Below are positions 732 through 33,766 of a stretch of 33,766 nucleotides of DNA, piece by piece. Where the stretch lies: positions 1 to 33,766 of IMG/VR virus record IMGVR_UViG_3300051397_000031, one strand, 5' to 3'. Numbering within the stretch: position 1 is the first letter of the stretch; the number at the start of each line of letters is the position of its first letter. Position numbers and translations under genes: made by a program. Source of the stretch: a virus. The notes under the pieces are model-generated. The model did no database searches. It was not told the DNA's origin and saw only the letters and a list, made by a program, of their open reading frames with translations.

Positions 732-760
732 AGTGTACCACGGACCGCATTGGGAGTCAA
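732..760 (-). promoter_or_regulatory. promoter of the XRE operon
   Basis: Minus strand: TTGACT (760-755), 17 nt, TACACT (737-732), with TGG before the -10 (extended -10). It lies about 40 nt upstream of the XRE start codon. The sequence GTGGTACACTTTGCTTGTA is nearly identical to the endolysin promoter over 19 nt, and its core also occurs at the membrane-protein promoter at 13044. Confidence 0.8.
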
Positions 761-2226: not shown

Positions 2227-2255
2227 AGTGTACCACCAAACACTCGGATTGCGTA
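2227..2255 (-). promoter_or_regulatory. promoter of the endolysin-holin pair
   Basis: Minus strand: TACACT (2232-2227) with TGG before it. The weak -35 TACGCA (2255-2250) is at 17 nt. GTGGTACACTGTGCTTGTA matches the XRE promoter at 18 of 19 positions. A short inverted repeat TGCG/CGCA overlaps the -35 region and could be an operator. It lies in the 130-nt gap between the XhlA-like gene and the endolysin. Confidence 0.6.
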
Positions 2256-3303: not shown

Positions 3304-4248
3304 TTAGCGCTGAAGGCCCGTGAAAAAGGCGTTGCTGTGACGCCAGGCCTGCTCGGGCGAAAACCCATGGGGGTACGCGGCGACCGCACCCATATTCCCA
3401 CAGAAAAAATCCCCGTCGTACACCGGGTTGAACCCGACCCCGACCGTGTGCGGAGAGGTGACCGTGCCGAAGTTCGCTACGCTGTTCTCTGCCTGCAGAG
3501 TTCCGTTCACGTAGATCGAGACCGTCGTGGTGCCGCCGGACACGGTCGCGGAGGCCAGAAGGTGGTAGACGCCTCCGGACAAAAGGAGGGGTTCGGTCGT
3601 GCACGACAGGTTATCGGAGGTCTGCCACGACCACATGACGCTGCCGTCTGTGATTCCGGTGCCTGTTCCCGACGGGCCGGAGGTGCCGGAGGTTCCGGCC
3701 GTTGTGCACACGTAGACATTCCCGTCGTGGCTCGCCTGGTCGCCGACCGCGTAAGCCGTCGAAGCCGACCACGGCGTGTACCCGTTTCCTACGATAAACG
3801 CGAGTTCCTGCGGGGCCATGCCCGTGGAGTTCCCTCCCGCGTTCGGAAGGTAAAACTCGAACCCCGACCGACTGGCCCCGCCCTGGTCCGTGTGCCCGTC
3901 CGCGATCAAACGCACGTTCGCTCCCGCGTACCCCCAGTACTCCGAGGACACGGTGCATTCGACCGCCAGTTCCGGGTAGGTCAGTTCCACGTTCGTCGCA
4001 ACCCTCGCCTGCGCGTTCGATTCGTACGGGAAGAGCGCGCAGTGCTCGTTGCCCACCTGCCCCACGGCTTCGAGCGGCGTTGTCGACTGCTGCAGGTTCG
4101 TCCCGTCGTTCCCGTTTCCGCTGAGGTCCCGGATCACCCCCCCCGTGAAGCTTGTGTCTGAAAATTCGTAGAAAAAAGCCGGTTGATCCGCGAGCACAAC
4201 TTCGCGATAGCTGCCCGCGCGCGCGGGGTAAAGGAGAGGCGTCGTCAT
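3304..4248 (-). CDS. LamG-like adhesin with inserted carbohydrate-binding-type module
   Basis: A 314-residue virion protein. The opening (VLADQPAFFYEFSD, IRDLSGNGNDG) and ending (NPVYDGDFFCGNMGAVAAYP, PEQAWRHSNAFF) are the two halves of a concanavalin A/LamG-like lectin. The middle (about residues 155-210) is a small aromatic module (WSASTAYAVGDQASHDGNVY, VCTTAGTSGTSGPSGTG, DGSVMW) like the CBM5/12-type modules in phage tail proteins. It probably binds glycans on the host surface. Its start overlaps the upstream gene by 4 nt, and it resembles the lectin part of the 7005-8258 protein. Confidence 0.6.
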   Translation of the reverse strand: MTTPLLYPARAGSYREVVLADQPAFFYEFSDTSFTGGVIRDLSGNGNDGTNLQQSTTPLEAVGQVGNEHCALFPYESNAQARVATNVELTYPELAVECTVSSEYWGYAGANVRLIADGHTDQGGASRSGFEFYLPNAGGNSTGMAPQELAFIVGNGYTPWSASTAYAVGDQASHDGNVYVCTTAGTSGTSGPSGTGTGITDGSVMWSWQTSDNLSCTTEPLLLSGGVYHLLASATVSGGTTTVSIYVNGTLQAENSVANFGTVTSPHTVGVGFNPVYDGDFFCGNMGAVAAYPHGFSPEQAWRHSNAFFTGLQR

Positions 4249-10638: not shown

Positions 10639-12117
10639 TTACGCCCCCCAAACGTTTCCAGTTGCAGCGTCGACCATCCCTGGAATTCCGCCCGCCTGGC
10701 TGACCGTTGTGCAGGTCGTGTACCACTGCGTTCCACGGGTGTCACCGGTGTGTTCGACTCCCACGACGCGGTAAATTCCGTCGGCGTCTAGCGGCCGCTG
10801 CACCTGTCCGATCTGGAACGTCTGCGCTTGAATAAGAGCATTCTGGATGTGCACCAGCGTGTTGATCTGGATGGCAGGATTTAGAAGGCACTTGAAGGTC
10901 ACGCCGAGTCCGCTTTGAGCGGGCTGGCCGATCAGTCCGGAGCCGGGGGAGAGGTTGAGGATTTCCCCTTGCGGAGGATCGGACGCGGCGAGAAGATTGA
11001 CTTTTCCGTCGGCCGTGTGAAACGCGAGGTTGTTTCCCTGCGCGATCTGGCGCAGGTAGTCTCGCGTGAGCCCAAACACCGTCTTGCCCCTCGGCAGCTG
11101 CGACGTGCTCAACTGCGGGGAGATTTCCCCGAGCGGCGTGGGCACGCTCGCGCGGCTCGCGAGGTTCGTCACCAGGCTGCGAGCCGACTGCCCCTTCGAG
11201 ATCGAAAAGGCAACAAATCCCTGATTGATCATGCTATCGGAGGCCAGACAATTCAGCGTGAGCCGAAACGTCACGTTGTCCGACATGTCGCGGACCGGCT
11301 CGACCAGTTCCCCTCGAAAAATCACGCCGTACTGCGTGCCCTCGTACCCCGCTTCCACGACCACCTGCGCCCCGTAGTTCAGAATAAAATTCTCCGTCGC
11401 CGGGTTTAGGTTATAGATGACAACCGACGAAAAGGGCGGCGTTTGATTCACCACGGTCTGGACGTCGAAGGTACAGTGGAGGTCGGAGACGTCGAGGGCC
11501 ACCCCGGAAACGTCGCTCACCAGAATTCGGTAGCGGCGTCCGTACAGGACGTTCCCCGTCCGCTGGCTCCCCGCGACGACCGAGTAGTTCGTCGCCGGGA
11601 AGTCGACCTGGTTCGCAATTCCAGGAGGCGTACCGTTGTCGAGCGCGTACGACGTGGAGGGGTTGTACGTCAAACCCGTCGGTGCCGCGTAGCTCTGGCC
11701 GGTCACGGCACTGTAGGCCGCGTAGAGCGCGACGCCGTCTTGGTAGTGCCCGGCGTCCCACGGGCTCTGAATGATCGCGTTTAGCTCCGCCGACGCGCTC
11801 CCGGTTTGGACCGCCGCGCGAATCCCCGCGTAATTCGGGTCGGTGTTGATCAGCGTGGCGTACGCCTGCGCCCCCGCCGCCGGGGTCGGGAAGGCGAGAA
11901 AGCCGCCGGACGTCGTTCCGTTAGACAGTGCGTCGACCGCGGGATTTCCCGCCGTAAGTCCGGCGGGGTTATACCCGGGCCACGCGTAGGCGTTCCCCAG
12001 GCCTTCTTCCGCCTGCCACTGCGCCAGAACCACATCCACCTGAAGCCCCGTGGAATTTGCAGCCATTTGTGCAAGCTGCAGCACATACGGATCGATTGCA
12101 ACAGCCGTTTGAATCAC
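10639..12117 (-). CDS. baseplate hub protein with N-terminal lysozyme-like domain
   Basis: A 492-residue fusion. Residues 1-145 resemble a glucosaminidase/lytic transglycosylase-like fold: VLQLAQMAANSTGLQVDVVL followed by QWQAEEG (candidate catalytic Glu), YNPAGLTAG, GGFLAFPTPAAGAQAYA. Residues from about 185 are a gp27/gpD-like hub (YRILVSDVSGVALDVSDLHC, SSVVIYNLNPATENFILNYG, VVVEAGYEGTQYGVIFRGEL, QIAQGNNLAFHTADGKVNLL). The enzyme domain would cut the wall during DNA entry. GTG at 12117 overlaps the plug stop by 4 nt. Confidence 0.75.
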   Translation of the reverse strand: MIQTAVAIDPYVLQLAQMAANSTGLQVDVVLAQWQAEEGLGNAYAWPGYNPAGLTAGNPAVDALSNGTTSGGFLAFPTPAAGAQAYATLINTDPNYAGIRAAVQTGSASAELNAIIQSPWDAGHYQDGVALYAAYSAVTGQSYAAPTGLTYNPSTSYALDNGTPPGIANQVDFPATNYSVVAGSQRTGNVLYGRRYRILVSDVSGVALDVSDLHCTFDVQTVVNQTPPFSSVVIYNLNPATENFILNYGAQVVVEAGYEGTQYGVIFRGELVEPVRDMSDNVTFRLTLNCLASDSMINQGFVAFSISKGQSARSLVTNLASRASVPTPLGEISPQLSTSQLPRGKTVFGLTRDYLRQIAQGNNLAFHTADGKVNLLAASDPPQGEILNLSPGSGLIGQPAQSGLGVTFKCLLNPAIQINTLVHIQNALIQAQTFQIGQVQRPLDADGIYRVVGVEHTGDTRGTQWYTTCTTVSQAGGIPGMVDAATGNVWGA

Positions 12118-12494
12118 CCCCCCGCGTAGCCGACGTTGTCGGTCCACACGATCTGGTAGGTCGAGGTTGACGAGGGGGAAACCTGCGATCCGAGCGTCGC
12201 AAAGGTCGGGTTGTCGGCCAGTCCTCCTCCGTTTGGCACGACGTAGGCGCTACCGATTTGCAGGTACGCGTACGGCGCTAGAAGGTTGGCCGCCGGGTAC
12301 TGGCCCGTGAGGATCGGAACCCCGTCTAGGAGCAGCGTGCCCGTTCCGCTCTGGGTGACTCCCATCCACCAGTAGCCTCCCTGTTCGTTCCAGGTGAACT
12401 GAAACGACAGCGTAAGGTTTCCCGCGTCGACCGGCAGCGTGGCCGTGAACGACTGGTTTGCTCCGGCGGTCAGCGGCAGCAAGACGGCTGGCAT
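12114..12494 (-). CDS. baseplate plug protein (Pam3 gp18-like, DUF6983)
   Basis: A 126-residue beta protein. QSFTATLPVDAGNLTLSFQF, NEQGGYWWMGVTQSGTGTLL, LDGVPILTGQ, LLAPYAYLQIG and a C-terminal STYQIVWT match the phage baseplate plug family first described structurally in cyanophage Pam3. It should close the hub around the spike before contraction. ATG at 12494 follows CGAGGAGGTG, which lies immediately after the moron terminator, so expression from an upstream promoter requires read-through. Confidence 0.75.
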   Translation of the reverse strand: MPAVLLPLTAGANQSFTATLPVDAGNLTLSFQFTWNEQGGYWWMGVTQSGTGTLLLDGVPILTGQYPAANLLAPYAYLQIGSAYVVPNGGGLADNPTFATLGSQVSPSSTSTYQIVWTDNVGYAGG

Positions 12495-12510: not shown

Positions 12511-12541
12511 CAAAAGAAAAAAGCCACCCGCAGGTGACTTA
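12511..12541 (-). terminator. terminator of the membrane-protein moron
   Basis: Minus-strand RNA: AAGUCACC, loop UGCG, GGUGGCUU (8 bp with one G-U pair), then UUUUCUUUUG. The stem begins within the TAA stop codon of the moron gene. It is inside the tail/baseplate operon. Confidence 0.85.
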
Positions 12542-13021
12542 TTTGGATAGAAGCGACAAGATTCTCGAGTGTTCGGAGGAGGTGGTTCGAAAGTACGCCA
12601 CCGTCTGCACTCCGCGCACGGTCCCTGTCAGCGCCGTGAGCGACGCGTTCTTGCTTCGCCCGCCCACCAGTGCGCCCACCACCGCGCCGGGCGTTCCGAA
12701 AACGGCGTCTCCGATCACACCCCCCGCAACCGCTCCGAGTGGGCTGCGGCGGCTCTGTTGCACCCAGTCGCAGCTTGTCACGGCGAGTGCGACCGTGTTG
12801 ACCAGCAGCGTGCCCCCCGGTGCCGGATACACGCGCACAACGCCGGGCCCCACACCAGGCAACCCGGCGACGTAGGAAACCGGAATACTGCGCCGTTTCT
12901 GCTCGGGGGTCACCTGCGGTTTCTTCAACCATGAGGAAATTCGGTCGACCTCTCTGCTCACCAGGACGAGAAACCAGATTGCAAAAGACGAACCGAGAAC
13001 CAATACCCAAAAAATCTCCAC
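12539..13021 (-). CDS. membrane protein moron with glycine-zipper segment
   Basis: A 160-residue protein with no family I can name with confidence. Residues 3-21 (IFWVLVLGSSFAIWFLVLV) are a membrane segment or uncleaved signal anchor, then a basic stretch (LKKPQVTPEQKRR). A central beta region is followed by a glycine-zipper-like segment at 94-121 (PLGAVAGGVIGDAVFGTPGA), which in other families pairs helices in membranes. GTG at 13021 follows AAGGAG. It has its own promoter and terminator, splitting the Dit-like and plug genes. This is the classic layout of a moron, often expressed from a prophage for exclusion or host fitness. Function is unknown. Confidence 0.7.
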   Translation of the reverse strand: MEIFWVLVLGSSFAIWFLVLVSREVDRISSWLKKPQVTPEQKRRSIPVSYVAGLPGVGPGVVRVYPAPGGTLLVNTVALAVTSCDWVQQSRRSPLGAVAGGVIGDAVFGTPGAVVGALVGGRSKNASLTALTGTVRGVQTVAYFRTTSSEHSRILSLLSK

Positions 13022-13043
13022 TGTCTCACACTCCTTTTTGGAC

Positions 13044-13072
13044 AGTGTACCACTCTTTCGACGGTTTGAAAA
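13044..13072 (-). promoter_or_regulatory. promoter of the membrane-protein moron
   Basis: Minus strand: TTTTCA (13072-13067), 17 nt, TACACT (13049-13044) with TGG before the -10. The core GTGGTACACTGT is shared with the XRE and endolysin promoters. It fits entirely in the 56-nt gap between the Dit-like and moron genes. Confidence 0.7.
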
Positions 13073-13077
13073 TAGTT

Positions 13078-13659
13078 TTACCCGCCTACTCCGTTTAAAA
13101 GTTCGGAAAGCAACGACTGCTGCGGGGCCGTGACGGCTTTTGGCTGTTGCGTGCCTCGATGGGCGTTGTCCGTGACCGCCGGGTTCGCGCTGATTTGGAC
13201 GACTCCGACGGTCGCCACCAACACCTCTTGCAGGTCGACCGTGACGCGCAGACTGTGCGCCGTCGTATAGTCCTCCTGTGCCGTGAGCGTGGCTACGAGC
13301 ATATTCGGGTAGAGACCGAGCCGGGTGTATACCTGCACCGGGATACGCAGTTCCTGCAGCTGCTGGAGGACCTGCCAGGCGGTCACTGAGCGCGACGATC
13401 CACCGGCGAACTGTCCGGGGATAAAACTCCGGGCGGTGTCCGACACCCCGAGGTTCATGGACAACGTCCGTGGCTGCATGAACGCGTTGTCCGTCACGGA
13501 AGAACCCAGCTGAATGGGCGACGTGGTGATATCAAGCGTCGACGTGTGCGTGTTTTCGAGGTCCGCGTCGAAAAACCAACCCCCAATATTGGCCCGCGCG
13601 TACACCCAGCTTCGCACGTTCGGCGCGGTCAGGTCGACAATCGGGTTGTTGATGCTCAC
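13078..13659 (-). CDS. Dit-like tail/baseplate protein
   Basis: A 193-residue protein encoded directly after the tape measure, where myophages with DUF3383 sheaths usually have a Dit-like or gp53-like LysM baseplate protein. It has beta-rich segments (LENTHTSTLDITTSPIQLGS, ARSFIPGQFAGGSSRSVTAW, PVQVYTRLGLYPNMLVATLT, LRVTVDLQEVLVATVGVV) like the distal tail protein beta barrel, and a disordered C-terminal tail. It should link tail tube and hub. GTG at 13659 overlaps the tape-measure stop (GTGA). The role is from position and fold-like features. Confidence 0.6.
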   Translation of the reverse strand: MSINNPIVDLTAPNVRSWVYARANIGGWFFDADLENTHTSTLDITTSPIQLGSSVTDNAFMQPRTLSMNLGVSDTARSFIPGQFAGGSSRSVTAWQVLQQLQELRIPVQVYTRLGLYPNMLVATLTAQEDYTTAHSLRVTVDLQEVLVATVGVVQISANPAVTDNAHRGTQQPKAVTAPQQSLLSELLNGVGG

Positions 13660-27737: not shown

Positions 27738-28721
27738 TTAGTCCGTGGGCGCAGGCGGACTGGGTTTCAAACCGCCCCTCGCGCGTGTGCGCCGACCGCC
27801 CATGATCGGATTATAGCACGTTTCCGGCCGCGCGCGCCCCGACTCTGTCCCACGCGCGCGATCCGCCTGGAGGCGGTCCATCGTCTCGATTCCATCGGCC
27901 AAATCCCGATAGAGTGTGGATCTCGACACGTACAGCAGCGCGCAAATCTTATCCCGCTGGACCTCGTCGCGAAAGTACAGCGTCAGCGCTTTGCGTGAGC
28001 GGTCATCTTCCAGCGCCCTGACGTCGCCCTCGATTTCGGCCAGTTCGTCCGTGACGTCCTGCAGCTTCACGCGCAGGAGGGCGAGTGACAGGTTCAGCTT
28101 TTCGGCCTGCGCGTCGACCTCGACCACGAGGCTTGCCACCTTGTCCCCGTGCCCTCCGCTGGGGCGCCGGTCCGCGTTGACCTCAGGTACACTGCGAAAG
28201 GCTCCGAGAATCCCCGAGGGAGAAAGCCGGTCGAGCAGGTGGGCCAGCCGCTCTTCCTGGCGCGCAATCTGTGACGCGAGACGGCTTTTCTGCTTGACCA
28301 ACCCGCTCCACCCCTGCAGAACGACGCGATAGCTCTCGCGTGGGGAAGGGTTCTCGAGCGGTTCGATCTCGATTTCCACGCGCGGTCTTTCCCGGTCCAC
28401 AAAGAAGTCCTGTTCCTGCACCAGCACCCAACGGTCGTCCGGGTACAGAACTCCCTCGAGCGCGTCAAGCAAAACCTTTTCGCGGTTGTGCGCGTCGCGT
28501 CGGGCGCGATCCGGCCACGCGTACCAGAGTCGCACGACGATCTTGCGCCCTGGCTCCGGCACAACCCACCCCGCCTCCTGCGCCCACTGTTTGGCGATCC
28601 AGCCCGCCTCCGCGAAGTACGACCGGGTTTCCTCCGTCCGGATTCGACGGTTGGTCGCCACGTTGCGATAGGCGGCGTTTACGCTCGGCGGCAGGGGTAG
28701 CACCAGGCGCTGCGTCATCAT
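27738..28721 (-). CDS. RusA-like Holliday junction resolvase fused to ArpU/RinA-like regulator
   Basis: A 327-residue protein with two parts. Residues 1-125 match RusA: LVLPLPPSVNAAYRN, RRDAHNREKVLLDALEGVLY, PDDRW, with acidic residues D76, D86 and D95/D96. Residues about 130-300 look like a phage late regulator of the ArpU/RinA/DUF1492 group: long helices, a central ALRVKLQDVTDELAEIEGDV and an HTH ALTLYFRDEVQRDKICALLY, VSRSTLYRDLADGIE, like sigma region 4. ATG at 28721 or 28718 follows GGAGGCG. No stop or start codon with ribosome binding site is visible between the parts. It precedes terS, the usual place of late regulators. Confidence 0.7.
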   Translation of the reverse strand: MMTQRLVLPLPPSVNAAYRNVATNRRIRTEETRSYFAEAGWIAKQWAQEAGWVVPEPGRKIVVRLWYAWPDRARRDAHNREKVLLDALEGVLYPDDRWVLVQEQDFFVDRERPRVEIEIEPLENPSPRESYRVVLQGWSGLVKQKSRLASQIARQEERLAHLLDRLSPSGILGAFRSVPEVNADRRPSGGHGDKVASLVVEVDAQAEKLNLSLALLRVKLQDVTDELAEIEGDVRALEDDRSRKALTLYFRDEVQRDKICALLYVSRSTLYRDLADGIETMDRLQADRARGTESGRARPETCYNPIMGGRRTRARGGLKPSPPAPTD

Positions 28722-29037
28722 TGTCCTTCGCCTCCAACTCTCGCGCCACCTTTGCCTCTGGGCCTCTGACTCGTGACTCATACCGGAAGTGTTTACAGTC
28801 CGGCGATAGCCACACGAGTCCTAAAGGGCGACCGTTAGCCACCTTGCGAGGATCAACGTCCCACACCGACTCGCAGTAGTGTTCCGTCGTCGGATGGTTA
28901 GCGCTGTGCATGGCGATTGCCGCTGGATCATGATCGATGGCCACGTCTACACTGCGGCCCACGGCCAACTCAATGCCGGTACTCGCTCCGCCGCCGCCAG
29001 CGAAGCAATCTACGATCCTCTCCTCCGGGGCGCTCAT
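28465..29037 (-). pseudogene. truncated cytosine-C5 DNA methyltransferase, N-terminal remnant
   Basis: The first 84 codons are a clear phage C5-methyltransferase start: motif I CFAGGGGASTG (residues 11-21), then VAIDHDPAAIAMHSANHPTT, and motif IV GLVWLSPDCKHF with the catalytic Cys81. Straight after KHF the similarity ends. The reading frame continues as arginine-rich sequence that overlaps the rusA gene in another frame to 28465. The ENV motif, target-recognition domain and later motifs are absent. ATG overlaps the loader stop as ATGA. I read it as a 3' deletion that joined the remnant to rusA; methylation activity is not expected. Confidence 0.65.
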
Positions 29038-32432: not shown

Positions 32433-33766
32433 GAGCGCACCTCCTTTCCGTTTACCGTGAGCTTGGCACCCTTGACCACGTGTGACGTGATCACCTGCGT
32501 AGCGGCCGGGCGTGAATAATGCGTGACGCTCTCCGCGTTATCGATAAACACCGGCCAGTCGAAACCGCGCCCTTCGTTAATCAGATTCGCGATCTCGAGA
32601 TTCGCGCGCACGCGCTCCGAGTAGCTGAGCGTCCGGTACTCGCGGCCCTCGTAGAGAAGCTCAAACGTCGGCTTGATCTCCCCCGTCGAGGCCACCACTT
32701 GGAACAGCTGAATGGAAACCTTGTCCAGTCGTTTCTGAAGCTGCGCAATCTGAATCTGCGCCGCGCGCGCGCGGTATTGCGTCAGTGCTGCAAGTTTCCA
32801 CTTCGTCTCGGTCTCCTCTTGAACCGCGTCGTCCAGCCTGCGCTTCGCTTCGTCCAGCGCGGCCCGGTCCGCTTCTAGGCGTTTCAGTTCGGACTTTACC
32901 CCTGCGTTGTGCTGCTCCGCTTCGCGCTTTGCGATTTGCAATTCTGCGATCCGGGTTTCCAAGCACTTCTGCGCTTCTTTTTTTCGCTGGAGTTCCTTCT
33001 TCAAGTCCGGAACCTGGTCCGTCCACTTTTTCCTTTGTTCCGCTTCGATTTTCGCTCTCCTTTTCAACTCTTCGTTCGCCTTCGTGATCTCTTCCACGCG
33101 GTTTTCGTGGACACGAATCGCCTGTTCCACTGAATCCGCCGTGAACGGAGCCTTGCACGTTGGGCACTCGTCCCCCACTTGGTAGTGAAACTCCGGGGTC
33201 GCCTGCACCTTGTCCAGAAAGTCGACGTGTCGGCGGAACAGGTACGCATCGTACTTCGAGATAAACTCCAGCCGATCCTCGATTTCCTCGATCTCTTCTT
33301 CGTGTTCCCCGAAGTCGCGCTGCACGATCAAAAGGTCCAGTTCCTTTTCGCTGAAATGCCTGAAAACCGGGGGCTCCTTCGCTGCGAGCGGAGTCAGCAG
33401 TTCAATCTGGCCGCGCGCGCGCTGCTGCTCCTTTTGGGCGTCTCGGAGTTCCTCGCGCAGCACCTTCGCCCAGCCCTCCGGGTCACGCAGCGGCTCGTGC
33501 TGGAGCAGGATTTCCTCCGAAGGCGTCAGGCGTTCGAGAACCTCCTCCTTGGTCGGTTCCGGCACGAGTCCCACGATCAGGGCGCGTGCGTCGTCATTCC
33601 CGAGAGAGGCGAAGTAGCCGGGCGAGAAAACGGAGAGAAACTCTTCCTTCTCCCCAACCAGTCCCGCGACGTGTGCATTGGTGGTCTTGCGACCGTCCAC
33701 GTAAACCGCGTTGCTCTCACCTTTCGTGCGCACGATCTCGTGCGTTTTGTCGCCGATCTCGACCGT
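32429..33766 (-). CDS. SbcC/Rad50-like ATPase, C-terminal part (start at 346)
   Basis: The window end cuts this gene; bases 33640-33766 duplicate 1-127, and the start is GTG at 346. Numbered on the full 518-residue protein: coiled coil to about residue 265, a zinc-hook CPTC at 274-277 (DECPTCKAPF), returning coiled coil rich in Arg/Lys/Glu, ABC signature RTLSYSERVRANLEIANLIN near 450 and Walker B WPVFIDNAES near 480. It has all SbcC parts with short arms. GTGA overlap with bet shows coupling. It is likely to act with Bet in end processing or recombination, although no partner nuclease is visible. Confidence 0.85.
   Translation of the reverse strand, partial: TVEIGDKTHEIVRTKGESNAVYVDGRKTTNAHVAGLVGEKEEFLSVFSPGYFASLGNDDARALIVGLVPEPTKEEVLERLTPSEEILLQHEPLRDPEGWAKVLREELRDAQKEQQRARGQIELLTPLAAKEPPVFRHFSEKELDLLIVQRDFGEHEEEIEEIEDRLEFISKYDAYLFRRHVDFLDKVQATPEFHYQVGDECPTCKAPFTADSVEQAIRVHENRVEEITKANEELKRRAKIEAEQRKKWTDQVPDLKKELQRKKEAQKCLETRIAELQIAKREAEQHNAGVKSELKRLEADRAALDEAKRRLDDAVQEETETKWKLAALTQYRARAAQIQIAQLQKRLDKVSIQLFQVVASTGEIKPTFELLYEGREYRTLSYSERVRANLEIANLINEGRGFDWPVFIDNAESVTHYSRPAATQVITSHVVKGAKLTVNGKEVRS
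33640..33766. repeat. 127-base terminal overlap, copy 2
   Basis: Identical to 1-127; see the first copy. It should be counted once when the circular genome (33,639 bp) is annotated. Confidence 0.9.

Follow-up and report, generated by a model that had tools for sequence, protein, structure and literature searches.

A putative moron cassette between the dit and plug genes of an Alicyclobacillus-type phage and its possible role in phage exclusion

The question raised by this locus is why a gene for a small, predicted membrane protein stands between two baseplate genes, how it is expressed, and what it might do for the phage that carries it. The window, the whole stretch of 33,766 nucleotides of IMG/VR record IMGVR_UViG_3300051397_000031, is from a phage of Alicyclobacillus-type. 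The Dit-like baseplate gene (13078..13659, minus strand; PF21821, E 8.6e-28; phrog_817, E 2.8e-36) forms the upstream border of the cassette, and the Pam3 gp18-like plug gene (12114..12494, minus strand; PF22479, E 3.5e-13) forms the downstream border, with an ATG at 12494 supported as the start by translation. The operon continues into the baseplate hub gene (10639..12147, minus strand; PF22759 and phrog_196), the start of which is uncertain, as its reading frame overlaps plug. The genes dit, moron, plug, and hub thus stand in a contractile-tail operon, and the preliminary description was right that the moron splits the Dit-like and plug genes, the two Pfam matches lying on either side of it.

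The moron gene and its putative transcription signals

The moron gene (12539..13021, minus strand) starts with GTG, with a GGAG Shine-Dalgarno sequence 9 nt upstream, and, on the evidence of the reading frame, homologs, and an AlphaFold model, is predicted to encode a 160-aa membrane-anchored PH-like/glycine-zipper protein. The reading frame is taken as a genuine coding gene because a homolog on an Alicyclobacillus plasmid is 42% identical to residues 48-158 of the product. Foreign base composition, considered as a mark of a moron, fails in this case, the GC content of the gene (0.62; third-position GC, 0.72) being within the range of the window, in which the other genes have 0.58-0.67. The cargo genes at the dit/plug site in relatives are unlike it in being AT-rich (0.38-0.44).

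The gene is closed by an intrinsic terminator (12521..12540, minus strand), in which an 8-bp stem from 12540 to 12521 is followed by the T-run TTTTCTTTTG (-12.2 kcal/mol, z -3.6). The first base of the stem falls within the TAA stop codon (12541-12539), as had been noticed beforehand. Because the cassette puts a strong terminator in the middle of a structural operon, the question arises how late transcription gets past it.

Upstream of the gene, a promoter-like site was found at 13044..13072 (minus strand; TTTTCA-17-TACACT) with an extended -10 element (TGG TACACT), which agrees in position with the promoter proposed in the preliminary description. The two hexamers match 8 of 12 bases at 17-base spacing, a similarity at the level of the consensus only, and by themselves they are weak evidence because three sites of equal quality are present in the whole window against 1.2 expected by chance. 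Unlike the hexamers, the common 9-base core TGGTACACT is significant and not due to chance: exactly three copies are present in 33.8 kb (0.07 expected; none in 100 shuffles), all on the minus strand and each ahead of a gene, namely an HTH gene, a lysin-like gene, and the moron. The first copy (732..740) precedes the HTH gene (74 aa, 467-691) within a full site, TTGACT-17-TACACT, at 760-732, and the second, recovered by the core search (2227..2235), precedes the lysin-like gene 1361-2182. The claim that the moron promoter has the core of the repressor therefore stands as far as the 74-aa HTH gene is concerned, but a promoter confined to the repressor is rejected, for the lysin-like gene has the core as well. 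Use of the site as a promoter is a prediction.

Beyond the core, the HTH and lysin-like genes have a longer promoter stretch in common, GTGGTACACT-TGCTTGTA (728-760 and 2223-2236 of the window), which may be a common operator; the match of the moron promoter to either of them is shorter than this mutual stretch. A general host promoter motif was also considered and rejected, the 10-mer GTGGTACACT giving no excess over a reversed control in four genomes of the Alicyclobacillus family. On a contig of A. sendaiensis (L092-L094), the core TGCTATATT is common to the DUF4352 cargo and to a promoter-like site that points leftward beside the repressor gene (positions 13567 and 44382).

Positions 1-127 and 33640-33766 of the window are identical, and because the ends repeat for 127 bases the record is read as a closed molecule of 33,639 bp; a repeat of just this size could stem from the k-mer overlap of the assembly. 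The genome encodes an HTH protein of 74 aa and an excisionase-like protein of 68 aa, and a search of the closed genome for a tyrosine integrase or serine recombinase found neither; either a temperate or a virulent lifestyle would be compatible with these findings. Expression from a dormant phage, as first proposed, is thus not upheld, and early lytic expression is also possible. The gene might then serve a virulent phage for early lytic counter-defence or takeover, its own promoter allowing immediate expression, and both the failure to find an integrase in the closed genome and the independent promoter-like site would fit this; the explanation is nevertheless judged very improbable, as two homologs (L066 and L068) lie directly downstream of repressors, a position that points to lysogenic expression, and a related phage of A. 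macrosporangiidus sits in a genome contig of 188 kb. Elsewhere in the genome, a DNA methyltransferase frame (28465-29037) looks truncated, its similarity to methyltransferase families being confined to their first ~85 residues.

Occupation of the dit/plug site in relatives

A search with Dit gave 30 viral loci and 15 genome loci, including those of A. sendaiensis, A. macrosporangiidus, and A. suci. Among the 29 viral loci having both genes, dit and plug are adjacent in 27 (gap, -2 to 66 bp), and in the remaining two, L002 and L003, ~0.84-0.87 kb lies between them; among the genome loci with both genes, three are occupied (L033, L034, and L031, whose contig equals that of L002 in length) and 11 are empty. 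Presence of the gene at this site in all relatives, which would have spoken against a moron, is contradicted by these counts. In a phylogeny built from Dit, plug, and hub, the window groups with L045, an empty locus, with support of 0.99, and the Alicyclobacillus clade to which it belongs also holds L001 (empty), L002/L003, and L033/L034 (both pairs occupied). The site is therefore empty in the nearest relatives of the window both by sequence and by tree, and among the loci compared it is occupied in the Alicyclobacillus clade only.

Four related phages carry cargo at the site that is unrelated to the window gene. L002 and L034 have DUF4352 membrane proteins, and the cargo of L003 can be aligned to that of L002. 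L033 carries a predicted lipoprotein (start at 2792; LFGC lipobox identified by inspection of the sequence; sub-threshold match to DUF5105). In L002, L033, and L034 the cargo is closed by a terminator right before the ribosome-binding site of plug, and in L003 a similar stem and T-run is present in the alignment. The comparison of L033 with L034, two loci of one A. suci assembly, is the clearest: the flanks are ~89% identical, the match ends at 2673, or 46 bases short of the Dit stop codon, and homology resumes at 3957, inside the T-run of the terminator, with unrelated cargo between. Because the site in relatives is either empty or filled with unrelated genes, and because of this swap, the dit/plug junction is regarded as an exchangeable moron site; cargo exchange at a fixed position is what these loci represent. 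With its own terminator, and with homologs at moron or lysogeny-module positions of other prophages, the window gene is well supported by sequence comparison as a moron cassette between dit and plug, in agreement with the earlier proposal. Closely related baseplate loci in which the site between two fixed genes is empty or differently filled amount to a natural experiment. In a Bacillota MAG, a reverse-strand TM2-domain-like gene directly follows Dit (L044:4623-5000); plug was not found there.

The same comparison bears on whether the protein is a virion or tail-assembly component peculiar to this phage. The position within the baseplate operon would fit such a component, as would that of several homologs between tail chaperones and tape measure. 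The gene is missing, however, in near relatives in which Dit, plug, and hub are conserved, its product has a membrane anchor, it has its own terminator, and other homologs lie beside repressors or integrases far from tail genes. A structural role is thus disfavoured, and we give it the least weight of all the explanations considered.

Predicted fold, topology, and family of the moron protein

The N-terminal anchor and glycine-zipper segment of the 160-residue protein, both described beforehand, were recovered. Residues 3-21 form a single hydrophobic segment (mean Kyte-Doolittle value, 2.49), residues 2-32 are helical in both AlphaFold models, and the glycine zipper PF13488 matches residues 95-121 with an E value of 0.00097, under the Pfam cut-off. 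Membrane association is predicted from the AlphaFold model together with hydrophobicity and charge. No family was matched above cut-off in Pfam, in NCBIfam, or in PADLOC (0 families), and the protein gave no match to phages or to PDB sequences, nor did its short peptides to viral contigs and genome contigs.

Confidence in the AlphaFold model increased from a pLDDT of 44 without relatives to 74 with six relatives (7 sequences). The predicted strands (46-52, 60-67, 71-74, 77-87, 127-135, and 138-146), followed by a helix (148-158), make a PH-like arrangement, and the glycine zipper (91-123), between strands 4 and 5, is left unmodelled (pLDDT <50). The nearest PDB neighbours in a fold search were PH and PTB domains (top E, 0.022), the best single-domain match being the PH domain of Sin1 (3voq; probability 1.00, E 0.025, TMt 0.52). 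The search gave zero matches at E <= 0.001, and a bPH family was absent from the Pfam matches to the protein up to E 10. The fold is thus a prediction, and the same applies to the topology. Lys and Arg residues around the anchor number none before and four after it, and an excess on the C-terminal side was found in all five anchored family members. From this charge pattern the soluble domain is placed on the cytoplasmic side, and a single-pass protein with N-out/C-in orientation is predicted. With a cytoplasmic domain, interference with DNA entry or a subsequent step is more likely than interference with adsorption; the host-surface effect suggested in the preliminary description is therefore disfavoured by the predicted topology.

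A total of 400 Bacilli genomes were searched, and a homolog was identified on plasmid p1 of Alicyclobacillus sp. SO9 (E 2e-22) together with three weaker ones; the family is rare, being represented in five of the 400. Further members came from viral contigs and wider searches, among which L066 and L068 were found by profile search only (E 4e-10 and 1.6e-6), the assignment of L068 being weaker. The common pattern consists of short strands, RS-x-G-x-A-x-A-G, the glycine zipper, GGR, two strands, and a C-terminal helix. By sequence, the moron protein is a member of an unnamed, sparse family.

Apart from cases with a family search, the roles of the genes around the homologs were assigned by inspection of the translations. 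L066/L090 lies immediately behind a LexA-type repressor, L068/L091 directly follows an HTH repressor and precedes a serine recombinase, L070 lies between lysin and repressor, and L087 beside lysis genes and a recombinase, while L086 and the copy on the SO9 plasmid are beside integrases or recombinases. In L072-L074, L078, and L089 the homolog separates the tail chaperones from the tape measure, and in L072, L073, and L089 a terminator stands ahead of the tape measure; L078 was placed in this group by similarity and locus, without a gene list of its own. A position of this kind, with the tail chaperone on one side and the tape measure on the other, is also that of the moron gp15 in HK97. All the contexts examined belong to phages or other mobile elements, and the analysis brings out a family without a name, the members of which are found repeatedly near repressors and tail genes of Bacilli prophages.

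In two cases, L089 and L087, the next gene encodes a membrane-anchored Mrr nuclease (PF04471, E 2e-29 and 7e-18, respectively), with the nuclease predicted on the cytoplasmic side in both. This recurrent order, a PH-like glycine-zipper protein and then an anchored Mrr nuclease (L055:1384-2505 and L054:734-1821), is found in two different mobile contexts, and the pair is possibly an undescribed defence pair. The plasmid p1 of SO9 (NZ_CP066340.1, L065; 90 kb) carries a partial phage tail operon in which Dit is present and plug was not found, and the moron homolog lies ~35 kb from this operon.

Possible function in phage exclusion

The explanation that we prefer, and that we hold to be evenly poised between right and wrong, is that the moron protein is an accessory phage-exclusion protein at the inner face of the membrane, protecting the infected cell against competing phages. 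An extended -10 promoter, the gene, and a terminator would form a moron cassette inserted between dit and plug, from which the product would be made independently of the late operon. The protein would cross the membrane once, N-out/C-in, and a PH-like domain with a glycine-zipper hairpin inserted in it would be held at the cytoplasmic face of the host membrane, where it might hinder the genome entry of a second phage or the step right after. Superinfection exclusion, raised in the preliminary description, is thus plausible; we infer both this function and its target step from the analysis as a whole. Well-established Sie proteins, which are small, membrane-located, and able to stop DNA entry, include those of HK97 (gp15), Tuc2009 (Sie2009), TP-J34 (Ltp), and P22 (SieA) (PMC10883804, PMC3952083), and bacterial PH domains have been found in phage lysogeny modules (PMC2817789).

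The cassette resembles morons of the HK97 gp15 type in being one accessory membrane-protein gene of variable presence in a structural operon (Cumby et al. 2012, as cited in PMC10883804 and PMC6379469), with a terminator and a probable promoter of its own. The two are set apart by description, HK97 gp15 being YebO-like and the window protein predicted to be PH-like with a glycine zipper, at the dit/plug site. Ltp of TP-J34 and Sie2009 of Tuc2009 are membrane-associated accessory phage products, as is predicted for the window protein; Ltp is encoded in the lysogeny module, as are some homologs of the window family, and the L033 cargo at dit/plug is a predicted lipoprotein like Ltp. Ltp works, however, on the outer face, whereas the window protein is predicted on the inner face, and no common family was seen. 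Bacterial PH-like domains (PHb, PF08000; anchored DUF1200/DUF2244; PMC2817789) are similar in predicted fold, anchor, and cytoplasmic domain, and occur, like the window family, in phage lysogeny modules, but the window protein differs in having no Pfam bPH match and in the glycine zipper inserted after strand 4 and before strand 5.

A different step of defence is possible, with a probability clearly below that of entry exclusion: the protein could be a PH-like membrane sensor or adaptor that recruits or replaces a membrane nuclease, or a glycine-zipper disruptor of the membrane in abortive infection. The anchored, cytoplasmic Mrr nucleases that follow two family members point in the first direction, for which SNIPE is a precedent: this nuclease of the inner membrane cleaves phage DNA as it is injected, and some of its homologs have an N-terminal PH domain (PMC13190303). 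SNIPE is anchored with its domain on the cytoplasmic side and is conceptually near the PH-like and anchored Mrr pair of L054/L055. A membrane-depolarising glycine-zipper toxin, which has been described (PMC12744356), would agree with the second. SNIPE consists, however, of DUF4041 and GIY-YIG, and the window moron has no adjacent nuclease, its next gene being plug; most homologs likewise lack one.

Less probable again is a host-directed fitness or stress gene, that is, lysogenic conversion apart from phage defence. Bacterial PH proteins are tied to the stress response and to the transport of bacteriocins (PMC2817789, PMC8657885), and the plasmid of one homolog has arsenate reductase genes, but all the contexts examined are phages or mobile elements and the fast turnover of cargo is as expected of competition genes. 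Under the preferred exclusion reading, the candidate exclusion proteins pointed to are the glycine-zipper PH-like family, the DUF4352 membrane proteins, and one lipoprotein.

A wider proposal, which we put forward as speculative and rather doubtful, joins two statements: that the dit/plug junction is an exchange site for rotating membrane-located exclusion proteins, and that the moron is a stand-alone version of a two-gene system for the surveillance of entry that has yet to be described, a PH-like glycine-zipper protein with an anchored Mrr nuclease, spread by Bacilli prophages and plasmids. As for the glycine-zipper segment itself, the window protein is similar in it to Gly-zipper (PF13488) and C19orf12-like (PF20721) proteins, the matches being all under the gathering scores and the low-complexity segment alone being in common.
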